64,000 bases of DNA, taken from contig NZ_CP060711.1 of NCBI RefSeq assembly GCF_014395425.1, forward strand, positions 930,001 through 994,000. Direction: 5' to 3'. Every line of letters begins with the position of its first letter. The first letter of the stretch is position 1. Position numbers and translations under genes: made by a program. Under the pieces are notes generated by a model, which saw nothing but the letters and a program-made list of their open reading frames with translations, was not told where the DNA came from and made no database searches. Below are positions 37,344 to 56,209 of the stretch, in pieces. Origin of the DNA: Thermomonas brevis (GTDB lineage: Bacteria; Pseudomonadota; Gammaproteobacteria; Xanthomonadales; Xanthomonadaceae).

Positions 37344-37436
37344 GGAGAGGTGTCCGAGTGGTTGAAGGAGCACGCCTGGAAAGTGTGTAAGCGTCTAAAC
37401 CGCGCTTCGGGGGTTCGAATCCCCCTCTCTCCGCCA
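37344..37436 (+). tRNA. tRNA-Ser (anticodon GGA)
   Basis: The 93-nt gene has acceptor GGAGAGG pairing with TCTCTCC (one G-T pair), anticodon stem CACGC/GTGTG with loop CTGGAAA (GGA), a long variable arm, T-arm GGGGG-TTCGAAT-CCCCC, and encoded CCA. Its last 17 bases and the following G form the left attachment repeat of the element to the right; integration leaves the tRNA intact. Confidence 0.97.
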
Positions 37437-37437
37437 G
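37420..37437 (+). other. attL (left direct repeat)
   Basis: An 18-bp sequence covering the T-arm 3' half, acceptor 3' strand and CCA of tRNA-Ser plus one base, repeated exactly at 44225-44242. This is the expected crossover region of a tRNA-targeting tyrosine integrase. Confidence 0.88.
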
Positions 37438-37444
37438 TTTCTAC

Positions 37445-37470
37445 AAAACCCCTGATTTTCAGGGGTTTTT
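37445..37470 (+). terminator. Rho-independent terminator supplied by the element after tRNA-Ser
   Basis: An 11-bp stem (AAAACCCCTGA / TCAGGGGTTTT) with a three-base loop followed by a T-run, nine bases after the tRNA. It probably replaces the tRNA's native terminator, now at 44242-44280. Confidence 0.85.
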
Positions 37471-37474
37471 CCGT

Positions 37475-37511
37475 TTTTCGGAGAGAAACGGCCTGGTACA
37501 TGGATTGGTAC
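37475..37511 (+). promoter_or_regulatory. Left-end recombinase-binding-site candidates
   Basis: TTTTCGGAGAGAAAC (37475-37489) recurs inverted near the right end with one mismatch. TGGTAC occurs at 37494-37499 and 37506-37511, spaced exactly 12 bp; the same spaced pair occurs at 44148-44165. The pair ends five bases before the integrase ATG, so protein binding here could also repress int. Arm-type integrase or excisionase sites are the likely explanation. Confidence 0.55.
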
Positions 37512-37515
37512 ATTC

Positions 37516-39105
37516 ATGCGCCTGCCCCGCTATCTGCTTCTCCGCCCCAGCGGCTACACCTTCCGTCTGGTTGTTCCCAAGCACCTGCGCCGCCACTTCG
37601 ACGGACGCGGCGAGATCAGGCGCAGCCTGCGAACGCATGACCCGCGCCTAGCCCTGGCATGGTCTGGCGCGTTGTTGCTGGCCTACCATGCGGCCATTGC
37701 TCGCGTGGAGAAGACCGGCATGGTGTGGCGGAAAAACGACGATGACGAACTGGCGCAAGCGCTGGGCCTGACTGGCGGACGCAAGCCGAAGGATTGGAAG
37801 GTGGTACATCCGTCCGGCGCGTACCACGAAGGCCCGGACACCGACGACAAGGCGGCCGATATGGCCGCCGCGAAAGAGGCGGCTAAGTTCCTAGCCGAGT
37901 TGTACGGCGGAGCCGGCCCTCTCGGCCCGCCGGGCCAGCGCCCGGCCTCCATGACTTTGCCTACTCCGCCCCCGCCTGGCCCACCGCCTGGAGTAAAAAC
38001 CTTCAGCACGGGCGCGGCTGTGTCGGCCTGGCTCAATGCCGAGCGGCCAAACTTCACCACGCCGGCCCGCAAAAAGACTTTCGGCAAGTTGAAGAAAACC
38101 GGCGACACTTTCGCCGTGCTGGTCAAGCCTGGATCACGGCTCTACACCCTGGGCCGGAGCGATTGCGGCGGCTTCTATGACCACCTCATGGCTGGTGGTC
38201 TGTCGCGCAAGTCCGCGCAGTCCGTCCAGTCCTACCTCAAGCGGTTTTTTACCTGGGCCACCGCCCACGGCTACTACCCCGAGGACAAAGCCAACCCGGC
38301 TGCGGGTCATATCCGCCTGACCCGGGCCGATAAAGCCAGCCGACGCGGGACAGGCTTCCAAGCGTTCAAGGTGGAGCAACTACGGGCGATGTTCGCGCCC
38401 GAAGCGTTCGCCGCCTTGCCGACGCTAAAAGATCGCTGGATGGCCGTCCTTGCGCTTTACACCGGGGCCAGGTCAAACGAACTGGCCCGGTTGGAACTGG
38501 TGGACGTGGGGCCGGACGAACACGAGGGCGTGCCCGTTCTGGACATCAACGAACTGGCCGAGGACAAGAGCCTGAAAGCCGAGGCCAGTATTCGCCTGGT
38601 GCCAATCCATCCCGACCTACAGGCCCTGGGTCTGCTGGAGCGGGTGGAAGCCAGGAAGGCCGCCGGGGAAGCCCGGCTATTCCCTGGAAACCTGCTGACG
38701 CAGAACGGCCCCGCCGCGTCCAGTCAAAAGGCGTTTCTGGCGGCCCTGAAAGCGTGGGGCATTGCCCCACGCGGCAAGGGCCGTATGGGCCTTCACTCGT
38801 TCCGTGCGACCGTCATCCAGCGGATGACCACGAAAGGCGTAGCCCAGGGCTGGCGCGAGTTGTTCGTTGGCCACGAGGTCAGCGAAAAGCCGAGCACGCT
38901 CGACGGCGACCACATGGACACCTACAACCGCGATGAGAAAGGCCGACGCCTGACCCCTCTAAAAGCGACGGCCGCCGCCTGCCTGCCGGCCCTGAACTGG
39001 GCTGCCGAGGGTGTCATTGACCTGGACGGCCTGCGGCCTCTGCTGGCCGCTGGAGCGGCCCCGGAGCAGGCGACAAGCGGACGCCGGAAAAAGGCAACGG
39101 TCTAA
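37516..39105 (+). CDS. Tyrosine-recombinase integrase of the arsenic element
   Basis: The 529-residue integrase lies immediately inside attL. The catalytic set is visible: Arg319 in YTGARSNELARL, His427-x-x-Arg430 in LHSFRATVI, the His of VGHEVSE near residue 453, and the nucleophile Tyr470 in HMDTYNRD. The N-terminal 180 residues include a LRLSTRD-like arm-binding domain (EIRRSLRTHDPRLAL) and a Pro/Gly-rich linker (PTPPPPGPPPG). No strong ribosome-binding site precedes the ATG at 37516; the upstream bases are occupied by TGGTAC repeats. It would catalyse integration and excision at tRNA-Ser. Confidence 0.92.
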   Translation: MRLPRYLLLRPSGYTFRLVVPKHLRRHFDGRGEIRRSLRTHDPRLALAWSGALLLAYHAAIARVEKTGMVWRKNDDDELAQALGLTGGRKPKDWKVVHPSGAYHEGPDTDDKAADMAAAKEAAKFLAELYGGAGPLGPPGQRPASMTLPTPPPPGPPPGVKTFSTGAAVSAWLNAERPNFTTPARKKTFGKLKKTGDTFAVLVKPGSRLYTLGRSDCGGFYDHLMAGGLSRKSAQSVQSYLKRFFTWATAHGYYPEDKANPAAGHIRLTRADKASRRGTGFQAFKVEQLRAMFAPEAFAALPTLKDRWMAVLALYTGARSNELARLELVDVGPDEHEGVPVLDINELAEDKSLKAEASIRLVPIHPDLQALGLLERVEARKAAGEARLFPGNLLTQNGPAASSQKAFLAALKAWGIAPRGKGRMGLHSFRATVIQRMTTKGVAQGWRELFVGHEVSEKPSTLDGDHMDTYNRDEKGRRLTPLKATAAACLPALNWAAEGVIDLDGLRPLLAAGAAPEQATSGRRKKATV

Positions 39106-39231
39106 GGTGGGAAAGCCACTGCCCCTGCCTCAGCCTGGGGCGTTCAGTTTCGTTTTTCGTTCTTCGTTTCCACTCGCGCAAACAGGTTCCACAGGGTCTA
39201 GCCGACACCCCCGCATTGCCTACCCTGGGGC

Positions 39232-40716
39232 ATGCGCGCAAAAAACGAACCTGAACGGAGCCGCCGCTCCTCCCCATTGTCGGGCGCGCTAGCGTCCGAC
39301 AATGGGGGGAGTTTTGCCAGGCAGGAGCGCGAGCGAGTGCCGAAAAGGCAAAACGGGGGCGCAGCCCCCCGCGTCCGGGACGAGAGTTCCGGGCGCTCGC
39401 GGTCAACGGAGTTGGCCGCGCAGGACGCGCCGCCCAGGTATGAACGGGCGCGGCTGGCGGGTGGCTGGGAGGCTGCGCACGCCGGCCCCTTAGCCGAGGC
39501 GAAGCAGGCCGCCCAGCAAGCCACCGCCCGGTCAGGCAAGCCCTGGACACTGGAAGCCGACACGCAGACCCGCGCGATCCTGGACGACTTCCCGGCGCGA
39601 CCAGTCAAGGCGGACACGCTGGCGAAGTATCGGGCCGACTATGACCGGCTACGGGCGCGGGGGGTGTCGCCACTGGAGGCGGCCGCTACCCCGGCCCATT
39701 GGCAGAGACTGCGGACGGCCTGCCGCTTCTGTATGGCCGAGGATGTGCGGCGCTGGCGGGCGGCCAGTGAGCGCGCCCGCAAAGCGGGCGACCTGGACAA
39801 CGCCCAGCGCATGACTGCCGAGGCCCACCGCTTGGCGGTGGCCCTGGATGGCTGGTTTTGCCAGCCCCGCACGCGGCTGAACTGGGCCGCCAAAGCCAAA
39901 GCCCTTGCCGCCCAGGGAAGGCGGCCCAAGAGCAAGAGCCGGCGGCGGGATACTCCGCCGGCTCCAGATCTGGCCGTGGCCGCCCTGCTGTTCCCAGCAG
40001 CCAAGGGCGGCCCCCCGGTACGGGGGCAGGCCTTGGCCGAACGCCACGCCGAACGGCTGGCCGTCCTGGCCCTAACGGGCTTGCGGCCAGCCGAGATGAT
40101 GGCGGGCGTCCGGGTACGGGCGACCGTCGAAGCCGGCCGCCCGCTGCTACAGGTGGAAATCAAGGGCGCGAAGGTGGACGATCAGCGCGGCCACTATGGC
40201 CGCGTGCTTGTGCTGGAAACCACCGGGTCGGCGGCGGCAGCCCTGCGGGCCGCCGCAGAGGCCCAGGGCGGCGCGTTCACACTGGCGACCACGGAAGCGG
40301 ACTACCGGAGCCTAAACCGCGCCCTGGCGCGTCATGGGCTGTCTTGCTACTCGTTCCGCCACGCCTTGGGGTCTGACCTCAAGGCGTGGGTCTGCTCGCC
40401 GGCTTCTGCCGCCTACATGAAGCCAGGGGAGGCGGCCAAGGCCGCCGCCCAGGTGATGGGCCACCGCTCCACCGAAAGCCTGGCGTATTACGGCACGCGG
40501 GCCGGCAGTCGCCGGGGCGGACGGCCGCCCCTGTGGGCGGCCAGCGCCACAGAAGCCGATCTCATCCGCGAGAAATCCCCGGCCTATCGGCGTAGCCGTA
40601 GCCTGCCCCTGGTGCGGTTTCCGGCGCGCGGCAGCGCGCCCCCGCCGCCTGCTCCAAAACAACAACCCGCGCCAGGGGCGCGGGCTTTCTCGAAGCCGAA
40701 GCCGCCGGGGTTCTAG
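39232..40716 (+). CDS. Second tyrosine-recombinase-like protein
   Basis: Up to 494 residues. The C-terminal half carries a recombinase pattern: Arg285 in LTGLRPAEMMAG, Arg376-His377 in CYSFRHALGSDL (Tyr in the usual His position), His411-Arg412 in MGHRSTESLAYYG, and Tyr419/Tyr420 as nucleophile candidates. The N-terminal part resembles a core-binding domain. The frame opens with ATG at 39232, but the first 35 codons span a perfect hairpin. A GTG at 39337 with GGAG nine bases upstream is a better start (459 residues). Whether it is active, assists the integrase, or resolves replicating forms is unknown. Confidence 0.75.
   Translation: MRAKNEPERSRRSSPLSGALASDNGGSFARQERERVPKRQNGGAAPRVRDESSGRSRSTELAAQDAPPRYERARLAGGWEAAHAGPLAEAKQAAQQATARSGKPWTLEADTQTRAILDDFPARPVKADTLAKYRADYDRLRARGVSPLEAAATPAHWQRLRTACRFCMAEDVRRWRAASERARKAGDLDNAQRMTAEAHRLAVALDGWFCQPRTRLNWAAKAKALAAQGRRPKSKSRRRDTPPAPDLAVAALLFPAAKGGPPVRGQALAERHAERLAVLALTGLRPAEMMAGVRVRATVEAGRPLLQVEIKGAKVDDQRGHYGRVLVLETTGSAAAALRAAAEAQGGAFTLATTEADYRSLNRALARHGLSCYSFRHALGSDLKAWVCSPASAAYMKPGEAAKAAAQVMGHRSTESLAYYGTRAGSRRGGRPPLWAASATEADLIREKSPAYRRSRSLPLVRFPARGSAPPPPAPKQQPAPGARAFSKPKPPGF
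39272..39307. repeat. Nested palindrome before the second recombinase
   Basis: Perfect 12-bp arms CCCCATTGTCGG and CCGACAATGGGG enclose a 12-base loop that itself contains the palindrome CGCTAGCG. It sits in the 230-bp stretch between the integrase stop and the probable GTG start at 39337. It may be a terminator, a recombinase site or an origin structure. Confidence 0.75.
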
Positions 40717-40751
40717 CCCCGACCCTTCGCCTTGAGCGTCGTCGCTGGTAA

Positions 40752-40997
40752 TCAGCGAAGCCGACGCCTAGCGCGAGGTTTCGGACGCGGGCGCAGGCCG
40801 ATGAACTCGTCTTCATCGCCGCCGTCGCTCCACCAGTTTTCCCCCTGCTGCCCTTTGTTGAACTCCTTTACGTTGACGCGCGTCCGGCGTGTGCCTGGCG
40901 CGGGCGGCTCCTGCGCTTTCGGCGCGGCTAGTGATTTCGCCATTTCATCCAGCAGAGCGCGCAGGACGGCGTGAGTGGCTTTGGTGTTGTCGGGCAT
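40752..40997 (-). CDS. Small hypothetical protein of the element
   Basis: The 81-residue product starts MPDNTKATHAVLRALLDEMAKSL and ends in a basic tail (LRPRPKPRARRRLR). The centre is Pro-rich, then acidic (GGDEDEFIGL). No family recognised. It is convergent with the second recombinase and upstream frame extension to 41081 looks non-coding. A role in regulation or DNA binding is only suggested by its charge. Confidence 0.5.
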   Translation of the reverse strand: MPDNTKATHAVLRALLDEMAKSLAAPKAQEPPAPGTRRTRVNVKEFNKGQQGENWWSDGGDEDEFIGLRPRPKPRARRRLR

Positions 40998-41119
40998 GGT
41001 CGTACTCAAGGCGGGGACATAACTCCTAGCAGACAAAGCCGAAGGCGCAAGCGCAGAGCGCTTGCCATTCCATCCCACCACACCAGGAAGCCCGCGCCTA
41101 AATCGATGCCACCGAGGCG

Positions 41120-41668
41120 TTAGCGCTTGTCTTTGGCCTTGAGTGTGGGCGCAAACCTTCCGCCGCGCGTGTCCTGCGCGGCGGTCAGGTGTTGCCGCCT
41201 CTCTTTGTCCATGCGGGTAGCCAGGCCCTTGGCAAAAATGGTGGAGTTGACGAACAGGTGGCCGTCTTTCCTGACGAAAAAACCGCGCTTTTCCAGAGAC
41301 TTGAAATGCTTGGAGATCGCCTGCCTGGAACAGCCGAAATCGTTAGCCATTGCCGTTTGCGACAAGCTGACCAGGTTGCCGTATTCCATCCTCTCCAGGA
41401 CATAGGCAACAACTTTCATCTCGTGAGTGGTGGTGCCTGCGTCAAGCAGTTGGCGGAAGTTGCCAAGAAACGCAAGGCAAAACGCTGCGCCCTTTTCGAT
41501 GGCAACGGGTGAGGTTTCGCGGTAGGTGGTGCGCTTCTCGATCACGCCACCGGCAGCGGCTGCGCCTGCTAGGGCTTGTTTCGCGTCATCGGTTAGGCCG
41601 CTCTCTGCGTCCAACTCGTTGCGGACTTCATCGGCGGGGACGGTTTCTACTCGGGTCTGGAATGTCAT
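41120..41668 (-). CDS. RepL-like winged-helix protein (putative replication initiator)
   Basis: The 182-residue product starts at ATG 41668 (MTFQTRVETVPADE). Residues 85-160 form a winged helix: THEMKVVAYVLERMEYGNLVSLS, then NDFGCSRQAISKHFKSLEKRG and FFVRKDGHLFVNSTIFAKGL. The final ...VNSTIFAKG resembles the closing motif of RepL plasmid replication proteins, and the length is right. Iteron-like repeats begin about 120 bp upstream of its start, consistent with an initiator and its origin. A plain transcription regulator is the alternative. Confidence 0.6.
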   Translation of the reverse strand: MTFQTRVETVPADEVRNELDAESGLTDDAKQALAGAAAAGGVIEKRTTYRETSPVAIEKGAAFCLAFLGNFRQLLDAGTTTHEMKVVAYVLERMEYGNLVSLSQTAMANDFGCSRQAISKHFKSLEKRGFFVRKDGHLFVNSTIFAKGLATRMDKERRQHLTAAQDTRGGRFAPTLKAKDKR

Positions 41669-41783
41669 GGGGTTCCTTCGCGGGAAAGTGCGAAGGAAGG
41701 CAAGCCGCCAACCTCGCCTAAAGCATTCAATGAAAAAGGCGCAACCTGTCAAGCGACAAGCGCAACCCAAACGCGACACCGCG

Positions 41784-41866
41784 ACAACCTCGACCGTCAA
41801 CCTTCAGGGGTTGCGGGCTGTCAGCCTCTGGAGGTTGACAGGGCTACAACCTCTAAGCGTTGACAG
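41784..41866. repeat. Iteron-like direct repeats, candidate replication origin
   Basis: Three imperfect units with 24-25 bp period begin at 41797, 41821 and 41846. Each has the form (A/T)CA(A/G)CCT-N6-GTTG, followed by (A/C)(C/G)(A/G)G. A partial unit ACAACCT lies at 41784. Within each unit CAACCT and (A)GGTTG-like ends are partly inverted. They lie upstream of the RepL-like gene in locally less GC-rich DNA. Confidence 0.55.
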
Positions 41867-42133
41867 AAAGATGGGGGAACAGGCCCAAGAGGCTTGTTTT
41901 TACGAGGTTCCGTCAGTGGGTAAGAGATAGAACAGGTAAGAGACAAAGCCGCCCCGCCGGCCCGCTGCGGCGCTGCGCGCCTTGCGGACGCCCCCCAGGG
42001 GGCTGCCGGTTTAGCCGCCTTCGGCGGCTGTTCTCCTGGCCGTGGGCCAGGGCCTGGGCGGGCGCTTCCGCGCCACGCCTGTAGGCGACTAGCGGCCCTT
42101 GCTTCCCTGCTTTATTTTGATTATTGTTGAAAT
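41867..42133. other. Non-coding GC-rich stretch between iterons and arsR
   Basis: No gene seen in 267 bp. It holds a strong hairpin AGCCGCC-TTC-GGCGGCT at 42013-42029 without a clear T-run. Its last 26 bases before arsR are AT-rich (TTTATTTTGATTATTGTTG), where the ars promoter and ArsR operator should be. No clean operator palindrome could be defined by eye. Confidence 0.5.
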
Positions 42134-42463
42134 ATGGAAACGATAGCCGCTGTCCCACTACTTGCTGCCTTGGCCCAGGAAACCCGCCTGTCGGTCTTTC
42201 GCCTGCTCGTGGAACAAGGCCCAGGCGGTATGCCCGCCGGCCAGATCGCCGAGCGGTTGGGCATTAGCCCGGCCACGCTTTCGTTTCACCTGAAGGAACT
42301 CACCCATGCCGGTCTGACGCTATCCCGGCAAGAAGGGCGCTACGTCATCTATTCCGCGAATTTCAAGGCGATGGACGACCTGCTTTCGTTCCTCACCCAG
42401 AACTGTTGCGCCGGTACGCCGTGTGGCGTCGAAGGCGTGTCCTGTAAGACCACCGCTACCTAA
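42134..42463 (+). CDS. arsR: ArsR-family arsenite-responsive repressor
   Basis: The 109-residue repressor has a winged helix with the recognition region AERLGISPATLSFHLKELTHAGL near residues 39-61 and RQEGRYVIYSAN wing. The classical ELCVCDL site in helix 3 is missing. Instead there is a C-terminal cysteine group (Cys91, Cys92, Cys97, Cys104), like the C-terminal arsenic-binding site of Acidithiobacillus-type ArsR. It heads the ars operon with arsI 11 bases downstream. Release from DNA by As(III) or methylarsenite would induce the operon. Confidence 0.92.
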   Translation: METIAAVPLLAALAQETRLSVFRLLVEQGPGGMPAGQIAERLGISPATLSFHLKELTHAGLTLSRQEGRYVIYSANFKAMDDLLSFLTQNCCAGTPCGVEGVSCKTTAT

Positions 42464-42474
42464 CGGAGTTCGCA

Positions 42475-42933
42475 ATGAAGCGCCTACACGTCCATGTCTC
42501 TGTGAAAGACCTAGACCAGAGCATTGAGTTCTATTCCGGCCTGTTCGCTACATCCCCCAGCGTTCGCAAAAACGACTACGCCAAGTGGATGTTGGAAGAC
42601 CCGCGCGTCAACTTTGCCATTTCGACACGAGCCGACGCCGTAGGCGTCAACCATCTTGGTATTCAGGCTGAAACCGCCGAGGAACTCGCGGAGATCGAAC
42701 GCCGCGCCGCCGTCGCTGGCTTGAACGCTGAACCGGAGACGGGGGCCAACTGCTGCTATGCGCGTTCGGATAAGCATTGGCTGGAAGACCCGCAGGGCGT
42801 CGTTTGGGAAGCGTTCCACAGCCTGGGCGATATCCCCGTCTATGGCGGAGAACGGGCCGCCGGCGAAGCCTGTTGCGTAGCGAAGCCGGAAAGCACGGCA
42901 ACGGCCTGTTCTTCTGGCTCTGGCTGCTGCTGA
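42475..42933 (+). CDS. arsI: ArsI-type C-As lyase (VOC-fold dioxygenase)
   Basis: The 152-residue protein of the glyoxalase/VOC fold matches ArsI/CadI. His5, His60 (in VNHLGIQAE) and Glu112 (in VVWEAFHS) fit the ferrous-iron triad. The vicinal pair Cys93-Cys94 (ANCCYARSDK) fits the trivalent organoarsenical site of known ArsI proteins. Extra cysteines lie near the C-terminus (Cys133-134, 145, 151-152). It would cleave the carbon-arsenic bond of methylarsenite using oxygen, yielding arsenite. The GGAG site before the ATG is good. Confidence 0.88.
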   Translation: MKRLHVHVSVKDLDQSIEFYSGLFATSPSVRKNDYAKWMLEDPRVNFAISTRADAVGVNHLGIQAETAEELAEIERRAAVAGLNAEPETGANCCYARSDKHWLEDPQGVVWEAFHSLGDIPVYGGERAAGEACCVAKPESTATACSSGSGCC

Positions 42934-42945
42934 GGACAAACGGCA

Positions 42946-43440
42946 ATGAACACCCAGCCCTATAACATCCTGTTCCTTTGTACGCACAACAGCGCCCGCA
43001 GCATTTTGGCCGAAGGGTTGGTAAACAAACTCGGTAAAGGGCGTTTCAAGGGGTACAGCGCCGGCAGTCAACCCAGCGGCAAGGTCAATCCGCTGGCGCT
43101 GGACACGCTCCAGTCTCTTGGTATCGACACCGCCGGCATGGAAAGCAAGAGTTGGGATGTGTACGCCACACCCGACGCGCCACAGATGGATTTCATCATT
43201 ACCGTCTGCGACAACGCGGCGGGCGAAGCCTGCCCGTACTGGCCCGGCTCGCCCATGACCGCGCACTGGGGATTTCCTGACCCTTCACTAGCCGAAGGCG
43301 ACGAAAGCGCCAAGCGCGCAGCGTTCGGAAAGACGGCGCAGGCGATCGCTCACCGCTTGAGCCTGTTCCTGAGCCTGCCGCACGACACCCTGGATCGCAT
43401 GTCGCTGTTGAGGGAAGTCAAAGCCCTGGGCAACGCCTAA
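42946..43440 (+). CDS. arsC: Arsenate reductase, low-molecular-weight phosphatase type
   Basis: Reduces arsenate to arsenite in the cytosol. The 164-residue protein has the P-loop LCTHNSARS (Cys12-x5-Arg18), redox cysteines in TVCDNAAGEACPYWPG, and the aspartate motif HWGFPDPSLAEG. This is the form common in proteobacterial ars operons. It follows arsI by 12 bases with a GAGG site and its stop touches aqpS. Confidence 0.95.
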   Translation: MNTQPYNILFLCTHNSARSILAEGLVNKLGKGRFKGYSAGSQPSGKVNPLALDTLQSLGIDTAGMESKSWDVYATPDAPQMDFIITVCDNAAGEACPYWPGSPMTAHWGFPDPSLAEGDESAKRAAFGKTAQAIAHRLSLFLSLPHDTLDRMSLLREVKALGNA

Positions 43441-44124
43441 ATGCGACTTCCAGGCCGTATGTTGGCCGAGGCTATCGGCACGGCATTTTTGCTGGCGGTC
43501 GTAGTCGGCTCCGGGATCATGGCCGAACGCCTGGCCGGGGGAAATATCGCCCTGGCCTTGCTGGCAAACGCCCTAGCCACGGGCGCGGGATTGTTCGCGC
43601 TCATCATGACCCTGGCGAGCGTCTCCGGGGCGCATTTCAATCCCGCCGTTTCGCTGGCTATGCGATTGCGCGGCGAACTCTCCACCGCCGACACCCTGGG
43701 CTATGTCTCCGCCCAGGTCGTTGGCGCTCTAGCAGGCGTTGCCATCGCTCACGGCATGTTTGATCTGCCAGCGTTCACGCTCTCCCAGCATGTGCGGGAA
43801 GGCGTGTCGCAGGTAGGGAGTGAGTTCGTTGCGACCTTCGGCCTGGTGCTGGTCATCCTGGGTACGGCTCGGCACGGGTTGCTGGCCGTCGCCCTATCGG
43901 TCGCCGGCTACATCGTGGCCGCGTACTGGTTCACGGCTTCGACTTCATTCGCCAACCCTGCGGTATCGCTTGCCCGAGCCTTCACCAACTCATTTGCCGG
44001 GATCAAGCCCAGCGGCGTGCCCTGGTTCGTTGTGGCGCAGTTGCTGGGAGCGATAGCGGCGACGGGCGCGGCGCGCCTTCTGTTCGATGGCAAGAGCGCG
44101 GACGCTTCCGCCTCGCACCCGTAG
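43441..44124 (+). CDS. aqpS: Aquaglyceroporin AqpS-like arsenite channel
   Basis: The 227-residue major-intrinsic-protein channel has six hydrophobic segments and both pore motifs: GAHFNPAVSLAMRL in the first half and FANPAVSLARAFTNSFAG in the second. In Sinorhizobium meliloti AqpS passes arsenite down its gradient after ArsC reduces arsenate. Here the gene starts directly after the arsC stop, so the role is probably the same. The operon contains no ArsB or Acr3 pump. The product could also carry methylated arsenicals. Confidence 0.9.
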   Translation: MRLPGRMLAEAIGTAFLLAVVVGSGIMAERLAGGNIALALLANALATGAGLFALIMTLASVSGAHFNPAVSLAMRLRGELSTADTLGYVSAQVVGALAGVAIAHGMFDLPAFTLSQHVREGVSQVGSEFVATFGLVLVILGTARHGLLAVALSVAGYIVAAYWFTASTSFANPAVSLARAFTNSFAGIKPSGVPWFVVAQLLGAIAATGAARLLFDGKSADASASHP

Positions 44125-44147
44125 GCTGCTACCATACGCCCCGACGT

Positions 44148-44196
44148 TGGTACGTCCGATGGTACAAACTCTCACCGGGTTGTTTCTCTCGGAAAA
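44148..44196 (+). promoter_or_regulatory. Right-end recombinase-binding-site candidates
   Basis: TGGTAC at 44148-44153 and 44160-44165 repeats the 12-bp spacing seen at the left end. GTTTCTCTCGGAAAA (44182-44196) is the inverse of the left-end 15-mer with one mismatch. They lie between aqpS and attR. Confidence 0.55.
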
Positions 44197-44224
44197 TCAA
44201 AGGTTTTGAGGTGGTTTAGGGACT

Positions 44225-44242
44225 TCCCCCTCTCTCCGCCAG
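44225..44242 (+). other. attR (right direct repeat)
   Basis: Exact second copy of the 18-bp tRNA-Ser 3' end. The following DNA resembles the sequence after the other tRNA-Ser gene (GATACGC...GCGTATC), showing this is the original tRNA-Ser flank pushed 6.8 kb away. Confidence 0.9.
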
Positions 44243-44290
44243 ATACGCAAAACGCCCCCTCGTGGGGCGTTTTGCGTATCTGGCGGAGAG
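44232..44290. terminator. Displaced tRNA-Ser terminator forming a 27-bp perfect stem
   Basis: Left arm 44232-44258 pairs without mismatch with 44264-44290 around a five-base loop. The inner part (GATACGCAAAACGCCCC) matches the terminator after tRNA-Ser(CGA). The outer ten bases mirror the CTCTCCGCCA acceptor end, so the att site is part of the stem. Confidence 0.8.
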
Positions 44291-56171: not shown

Positions 56172-56209
56172 GATACGCACAGCGCCCCCACGGGGGCGTT
56201 TTGCGTATC
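56172..56209 (+). terminator. Terminator of tRNA-Ser(CGA)
   Basis: GATACGCA and GCGCCCCC pair with GGGGGCG and TGCGTATC in a long stem. It is nearly identical to the stem at 44242-44280, marking that one as the original tRNA-Ser(GGA) terminator. Confidence 0.8.

Follow-up and report, generated by a model that had tools for sequence, protein, structure and literature searches.

A small arsenic element in a Thermomonas brevis tRNA-Ser(GGA) gene is probably mobilized by a tyrosine-recombinase-like relaxase

How could an element with room for only a handful of genes move from one bacterium to another? The question is raised by a locus in Thermomonas brevis (NCBI RefSeq assembly GCF_014395425.1, contig NZ_CP060711.1). 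The stretch analysed here, called the window, is 64,000 nucleotides long (nt; contig positions 930,001 to 994,000, forward strand), and it holds an element inserted at tRNA-Ser(GGA). The original prediction placed an integrase (int), a second recombinase-like gene (P2), a RepL-like gene (repL) and a four-gene arsenic operon within the element and stated that it has no transfer genes. All of these genes are present; P2 matches no Pfam model. The claimed absence of transfer genes is probably wrong, since P2 is more likely a relaxase with a hairpin resembling an origin of transfer (oriT) upstream of its gene. We propose that the locus is probably an integrative and mobilizable element (IME) of compact size, with a tyrosine-recombinase-like relaxase. 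The coordinates of its features are given in Table 1.

The limits of the element are clear. The 18-bp 3' end of the tRNA, TCCCCCTCTCTCCGCCAG, is repeated exactly 6805 bp away, as had been claimed. With up to 2 mismatches allowed, the window has three matches to this 18-mer, which are the two attachment (att) copies and the end of tRNA-Ser(CGA); shuffled sequences gave a mean of 0.01 (n=100). The native tRNA terminator had been placed just beyond the right repeat, and the DNA there does resemble the terminator that follows tRNA-Ser(CGA). The tRNA stays intact after insertion because the element supplies both the 3' end of the gene and a terminator to replace the native one. The GC content of the element is 0.642, compared with 0.704 in the remaining window, and a search of the host genome (a single 3.44-Mb contig) with the element returned one match, itself. 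The int, P2, repL and ars genes are open frames. It is almost certainly a mobile element integrated at the tRNA.

Relatives of the element use the same site. The integrase has a DUF6538 match above the Pfam cut-off and a Phage_integrase match of 23.1 bits, below the cut-off of 27.1. Matches to it at E <= 1e-40 occur in 38 of 296 family genomes, the window's own included. Four of these are close relatives with 76-86% identity by tblastn (G293, G113, G136 and G237), and a search of the genome contigs with the integrase alignment recovered three of them. All four lie at tRNA-Ser(GGA) between exact repeats, with spacings of 5847 bp in G293, 5829 bp in G113, 4787 bp in G136 and 5606 bp in G237. Together with the window's element this makes five same-integrase elements of 4.8-6.8 kb. 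TGGTACA motifs occur at the left ends of the five, and TGGTAC-type motifs are seen by eye near both ends in each of them. G237 and G249 belong to the window's own genus, and in G249 the site is empty: dnaX, the tRNA, the terminator and an alr-like gene (87% identical) follow in succession without the element. The tRNA 3'-end pattern is present in 24 of 25 genus genomes. Within the 0.6-1.5 kb read downstream of the tRNA, 3 of the 24 (one of them the window's own) have a related integrase; an ars gene matched in none of the 24, with the window's own stretch ending inside int. Both the relatives at the same tRNA and the empty site that the original prediction proposed to look for were therefore found. 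Neither of the outcomes that it named as contrary, the same genes without flanking repeats or a dnaX-tRNA-ars order conserved as core genome, occurred.

The integrase and P2 are also found together at other targets, which are tRNA-Ser(CGA) in G277, tRNA-Ser(GCT) in G262 and tRNA-Asp in G070. These three elements and that of G267 are each flanked by a 16-18 bp repeat. The G267 element is only 3.3 kb long and has int and P2 as its only large genes, together with the hairpin. No relatives of P2 or the integrase were found in viral contigs.

The function of P2 is central to the question of transfer. A profile built from 55 P2 rows scored 122 against MobK (probability 98.8), compared with 22 (probability 0.7) against the element integrases and 16 (probability 0.2) against the host XerD. 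Residues R285, K314, Y373 and Y420 are invariant in the 55 rows and R376 and H411 are kept in at least 90%; these correspond to the catalytic Arg, Lys, His/Tyr, Arg and His and the nucleophilic Tyr expected of tyrosine-recombinase-like relaxases, the individual parts being assigned by motif. The position that P2 occupies is filled by a known type of relaxase in two related elements. The gene after int in G136 encodes a MobA_MobL relaxase (E 1.6e-66), and the same is true of G053 (E 8.7e-61), which has a more distant integrase (34-38%) at tRNA-Ser(GCT) in a 4.4-kb stretch limited by a 14-bp repeat. The exact hairpin pattern described below was not found in the G136 and G053 genomes.

Homologs of P2 are also carried by very small plasmids. 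A tblastn search of 72,556 plasmids gave 22 records, all of them typed non-mobilizable; the 20 matches listed are all 2.3-3.7 kb. The same search of 50,697 phage records gave none. A search of 240 genomes of the order with the P2 alignment gave matches in 5 genomes, each of them a member of the same family that had already been found. A homolog 98% identical to P2 (P0001) is known from another source, where two contigs carry it; the longest measures 6859 bp, near the expected 6805-bp circle.

The DNA upstream of P2 has a conserved hairpin. This upstream DNA was read at 11 of 13 P2 loci and on the S. maltophilia plasmid pSM76; contig 38 of G262 was added as a twelfth locus through the pattern, and a partial P2 on contig 5 of G155 was left out. 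At 10 of the 11 loci and on pSM76 the hairpin is clear, with arms resembling CATTGTCGG/CCGACAATG, those of G277, G070 and pSM76 being variants. In G060 the outer arms alone are kept, as judged by eye, and this genome is not listed in the hairpin scan. A search of the 296 family genomes for the exact pattern gave 9 places, in 8 genomes. All 9 adjoin a P2 homolog, being at most about 230 bases 5' of the P2 match or overlapping the start of its open reading frame (ORF), and the reversed-pattern control gave 0 among the matches listed. The hairpin of the window lies inside the longest P2 ORF, which opens at ATG 39232. It is probably non-coding because a GTG start at 39337, preceded by AGGAG, gives a protein of 459 residues and the upstream frame is broken in G237. 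The start was chosen from the sequence and gives the same length as P0001 and P0002.

The stem of the hairpin also covaries. An alignment of 13 hairpins was made from the window, eight other chromosomal loci, pSM76 and three enterobacterial plasmids, without G239, G060 and contig 38 of G262. In this alignment 94.1% of the cells pair and 7 of 12 pairs show changes on both sides. The covariation score of 0.361 was reached by 0 of 500 shuffles, and slid controls gave 0.058-0.142. The distance between the arms, read from the alignment, is 6-13 nt in the chromosomal rows and larger in the enterobacterial ones. Five further plasmids served as a test. A cognate hairpin is present 204-250 nt 5' of the gene in 3 of 3 plasmids with a long P2-like protein (L119, L120 and L121), two of which (L119 and L120) are close relatives. 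On pIGRK, a TTGTTG/CAACAA hairpin lies about 229 nt upstream of mobK; judging from the distances, it may be the inverted repeat IR2 needed for the oriT of that plasmid.

Because P2 has a MobK-like profile, exchanges its position with MobA/MobL relaxases and has a hairpin whose exact pattern was found, in the 296 family genomes, only in its neighbourhood, it is more likely a tyrosine-recombinase-like relaxase than a spare recombinase. Several observations weigh against a relaxase or against the mobility it would provide. The pairwise identity of P2 to MobK is only 25% over 183 residues, and P2 has an N-terminal helical domain, which MobK is said to lack. A core-binding domain is absent from the three known tyrosine-recombinase-like relaxases MobK, TcpM and MpsA as they are described. 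In the predicted P2 model the helical region spans about residues 78-227 and loosely matches the N-terminal part of Cre, and for this reason P2 is likened to these relaxases and not counted as a member. Foldseek found nothing at E <= 0.001 with the model. VIA-align, the one source of this likeness, reported resemblance to XerH, XerA and Cre; a sequence search of PDB found no recombinase. Trees of P2, MobK, Xer and Int sequences are saturated, and a clade of P2 and MobK is weakly rejected in one test (p-AU 0.037). The first tree had the XerC row in a wrong frame and omitted one Int row as too short. In the tree used for the p-AU test, the motif requirement removed XerC as well as 7 of the 9 Int rows still present, and it cut P0012 and P0027 too early. 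The trees were not used as support for any reading. The shuffles of related rows overstate the covariation, and the structure was drawn from the same rows. No hairpin was present where it was sought next to the short MobK-type proteins of L122 and L123, and the palindrome could equally be a recombination site. The rep region of the window has no significant tandem iterons (score 15.5, with a maximum of 18.0 in 25 shuffles). The host genome has no VirB4-type ATPase (PF03135), and so no resident helper by that marker.

The alternative that draws most on these observations is that P2 acts as a further site-specific recombinase, as a Xer-like resolvase of circle multimers or as one half of a tandem pair for integration, and that the DNA moves passively. 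The catalytic set of tyrosine recombinases is kept in P2, its model resembles XerH, XerA and Cre, its N-terminal domain is helical, the palindrome resembles a recombinase site, and tandem tyrosine pairs are listed for some IMEs (accessible part of PMC5704250). However, the core site of a recombinase is fixed in length and the arm distance of the hairpin varies. P2 is far from XerD by profile, and its position in G136 and G053 is filled by relaxases rather than resolvases. Those two repeat-bounded elements have one recognised tyrosine recombinase and a MobA/MobL protein, although integrases could differ in what they need. This alternative is unlikely, while still deserving some weight. It is much less probable that P2 and the hairpin form a replication module, in which a nick by P2 starts plasmid replication and RepL is a regulator. 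A P2-like protein is the sole annotated gene of some tiny plasmids such as L092 and L120, the gene table being incomplete, which fits such a role. The RepL family, however, includes the initiator of pIGRK according to the accessible text of PMC6854812, where RepR acts through four iterons. In addition, pSM76 has a P2 homolog beside an unrelated Replicase-family protein, and no rep homolog is seen among the ORFs of G267, which has P2. Rolling-circle priming would be blocked, because tyrosine recombinases remain attached to the 3' end (accessible text of PMC8152469). It is similarly improbable that the locus is a decayed, immobile genomic island that merely holds ars genes. The missing PF03135 marker and the lower GC content are consistent with decay, but the frames are open, the att copies are exact, and the 98% identical homolog P0001 comes from other sources.

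We therefore retain the mobilizable element as the preferred reading, and it would act as follows. Int would recombine the att copies to release a 6805-bp circle, and RepL, which is related to pIGRK RepR, may maintain it. P2 would nick one strand at the hairpin 5' of its own gene and guide it to a mating pore provided by a conjugative plasmid or integrative and conjugative element in the same cell. A helper would be needed because the element has no mating-pore genes; no such proteins were found among its eight ORFs with Pfam and NCBIfam. The circle would be inserted by Int at tRNA-Ser(GGA) of the recipient. Direct support exists for the boundaries, for the use of one site by several elements and its empty form in a congener, for the exchange of modules, for the linkage of P2 to the hairpin and for the covariation of the stem. 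Of the features of an IME, the element has its own integrase and defined att boundaries; P2 and the hairpin are its candidate relaxase and oriT, backed by homology, the slot swap and the linkage. The original prediction called this an unusual mix of functions. The presence of integration, replication and arsenic functions holds, but the mix is less unusual than it seemed, since it follows a recognisable plan of integrase, relaxase, replicon and cargo.

Table 1. Features of the element and its insertion site, in window coordinates.
Feature	Position	Strand	Basis or remark
tRNA-Ser(GGA), integration target, left intact	37344..37436	+	ARAGORN
attL core, 18 bp	37420..37437	+	exact repeat
Terminator-like hairpin given to the tRNA by the element (AACCCCTGATTTTCAGGGGTT)	37445..37470	+	similar one after the tRNA in 5/5 close elements, by eye
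Putative left integrase arm sites, two TGGTACA	37475..37513	+	inverted match to right end; role inferred
int, tyrosine integrase, 529 aa, DUF6538 + Phage_integrase	37516..39105	+	Pfam
Conserved hairpin CCCCATTGTCGGGCGC-GCTA-GCGTCCGACAATGGGG, candidate oriT of P2	39272..39307	+	pattern search, alignment, covariation
P2, tyrosine-recombinase-like candidate relaxase, 459 aa from GTG	39337..40716	+	ORF opens at ATG 39232; GTG 39337 is the likelier start
orf109, small basic ORF, convergent, directly downstream of P2	40752..40997	-	candidate mobilization accessory gene
repL, RepL/RepR-like replication protein, 182 aa (longest ORF to 41800)	41120..41668	-	Pfam RepL
Possible origin region, dispersed GTTGAC/GTCAAC repeats	41669..41870	-	upstream of repL; weak
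arsR, ArsR/SmtB regulator	42134..42463	+	NF033788 above cut-off
arsI, ArsI/CadI-family enzyme	42475..42933	+	NF041414, 132.7 bits, cut-off 116
arsC, low-molecular-weight-phosphatase-fold (LMWPc) arsenate reductase	42946..43440	+	PF01451
Aquaporin, MIP family, candidate arsenite channel	43441..44124	+	PF00230; role from operon context
Putative right integrase arm sites (TGGTACG...TGGTACAAACTCTCACCGGGTTGTTTCTC)	44145..44198	+	similar in 5/5 close elements; role inferred
attR core, 18 bp	44225..44242	+	exact repeat
Displaced native tRNA terminator	44243..44290	+	resembles terminator after tRNA-Ser(CGA) at 56173 onward and empty sites L077, L079

The element has a small gene, orf109, that faces P2. 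There are 8 matches to it (its own included) at E <= 1e-5 in 7 of the 296 genomes, and all are beside and facing a P2 homolog. The P2 carriers G293, G277, G267 and G070 have no match. Since orf109 is linked to P2 rather than to repL, our guess is that it is a mobilization accessory gene. A C-terminal motif occurs in 35 of the 55 P2 rows and in 56 of 2750 shuffles; the pattern was devised after viewing the rows and is a lead only. Many P2 proteins have KPPG/GLRPR-like tails, and orf109 ends in FIGLRPRPKPRARRRLR. These tails are perhaps a shared signal for a secretion channel. In L122, a 2.9-kb Enterobacter plasmid, the MobK-type gene overlaps an annotated 3'-5' exonuclease gene (566-1997).

The replication protein RepL scored 30.9 bits against the Pfam RepL model (cut-off 20.3). 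It is 30% identical to RepR of pIGRK over 115 residues (E 6e-15, six-locus search). The repeat scan recovered the four 22-bp repeats of pIGRK as a control (37.5, with a maximum of 16.8 in 25 shuffles). In the sibling element of G293 the rep gene is preceded by four tandem repeats of 22 bp (33.5, maximum 14.5 in 25 shuffles), and none above the shuffles were found in G113, G136 and G237 (25 shuffles each). The window replicon is not assigned to the pHW126/pIGRK family because the four tandem iterons of about 22 bp were not found in it. The pairing of RepL with a MobK-type protein recurs on pIGRK and also on pPS1M3, for which it is based on tblastn and annotation. The element stretch of G053 has a RepL match (30%, E 4.7e-9) in an ORF for which Pfam finds no family. 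The rep-like ORF of G293 matches no Pfam model, and that of G237 matches helix-turn-helix models only. A search of the genome contigs with RepL found nothing.

The cargo belongs to an arsenic operon. The Cys-Cys pair of ArsI aligns to that of 5d4f (E 2.6e-18). The best NCBIfam match of ArsC is TIGR02691 with 77.7 bits, below the cut-off of 174.3. The aquaporin is presumably AqpS-like. Export of arsenite by this channel is suggested because neither ArsB nor Acr3 was found among the eight ORFs scanned with Pfam and NCBIfam. In these families ArsC reduces arsenate and ArsI attacks trivalent organoarsenicals; together with the exit of arsenite through the channel, these activities would make the host tolerant to arsenic. 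No ars homologs were found in the four close relatives or in nine further element loci searched. By DNA similarity, 420 plasmid records match the element. Among the 30 matches listed only the ars end is covered, at 63.7-67.9%, and in 75 of the 420 records the best-matching place has 80-90% DNA identity.

Other elements of this kind carry different cargo. The G262 element at tRNA-Ser(GCT) has an MmeI-like restriction-modification protein (L085 6780-9677). Elements of two genera (L032 6316-7296 and L035 11712-12623) carry membrane proteins of about 303 residues that are very similar by eye, with no Pfam family above the cut-off. Also by eye, the right ends of these two elements are nearly identical and their integrases are more divergent, which suggests a recent exchange of modules. 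The tRNA-Ser(GGA) site itself may receive other DNA. In G286 (L090 2543-12922) it is followed by a related integrase of 36% identity; a 16-bp repeat lies at a distance of 10.4 kb, and neither P2 nor RepL was matched. In the congeners L074 and L082, other DNA without a match to the element integrase lies directly after the tRNA (0.6-1.5 kb read); these are perhaps other elements at the same hot spot. A motif resembling signal recognition particle (SRP) RNA occurs at about 51436 on the + strand of the window, and in many congeners it lies directly after tRNA-Ser(GGA) instead.

IMEs, tyrosine-recombinase-like relaxases (TcpM, MobK and MpsA), RepL replicons and ars operons of this type are already known kinds. 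The novelty lies in natural elements, 3.3-7.7 kb in size, whose relaxase candidate has an additional N-terminal domain and is accompanied by a conserved hairpin. An earlier description of the element family or the hairpin was not found in a literature search made mainly at the level of titles and abstracts, in which subscription journals were poorly covered and absence is unproven. In the accessible text of PMC8152469, three tyrosine-recombinase-like relaxases are counted and their mechanism is called a "great mystery". Whether P2 represents a separate family of longer relaxases of the tyrosine-recombinase type, with the covarying hairpin as oriT, is an evenly balanced question. Such a family would reside in tRNA-integrated mini-elements of Xanthomonadaceae and in tiny plasmids of Enterobacteriaceae and Stenotrophomonas, with orf109 as an accessory factor. 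Since its plasmid proteins are labelled integrase or hypothetical and typing places the plasmids among the non-mobilizable ones, a route of gene transfer would have gone unnoticed. The locus offers a testable set: a further candidate relaxase family, a conserved candidate nic hairpin, natural swaps between P2 and classical relaxases, and a two-gene minimum of 3.3 kb. If the reading is true, mobilization may be possible for plasmids with P2 that are now typed non-mobilizable (22 of 22 matches), and there would be a route of spread for metal-resistance islands of this size.

The closest known system is that of pIGRK from Klebsiella. It shares with the element a candidate tyrosine-recombinase-like relaxase (MobK) and a RepL/RepR-type Rep. 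In both, the DNA on the 5' side of the relaxase gene has inverted repeats and is G-rich over a stretch, and the pIGRK layout of four 22-bp repeats recurs in the sibling G293. By contrast, the window element is integrated in the chromosome and has an integrase and cargo of its own. P2 has about 25% identity to MobK and a further domain at its N-terminus, and the rep region of the window element has no clear iterons. SGI1, as described in the accessible parts of PMC9299015 and PMC6414798, is likewise an integrative mobilizable element; its mobilization protein is tyrosine-recombinase-like and its oriT contains inverted repeats. By that description, however, it is a much larger island at trmE that uses IncA/IncC helpers and has MpsA and MpsB as separate proteins. 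Tn5520, from the accessible part of PMC5704250, has one integrase and one mobilization gene, as does the 3.3-kb sibling G267, but it is a Bacteroides element that inserts in AT-rich regions. MOBQ-type IMEs at tRNA-Ser in Xanthomonadaceae have an integrase and MobA/MobL, like the siblings G136 and G053; the accessible part of PMC13310844 describes a 19-kb IME-like region at tRNA-Ser in NG-SM01 of the S. maltophilia complex. The window element differs from these in holding P2 and the hairpin in the relaxase slot. Ars operons with ArsI or an aquaporin are known types, and there the likeness is limited to the cargo.

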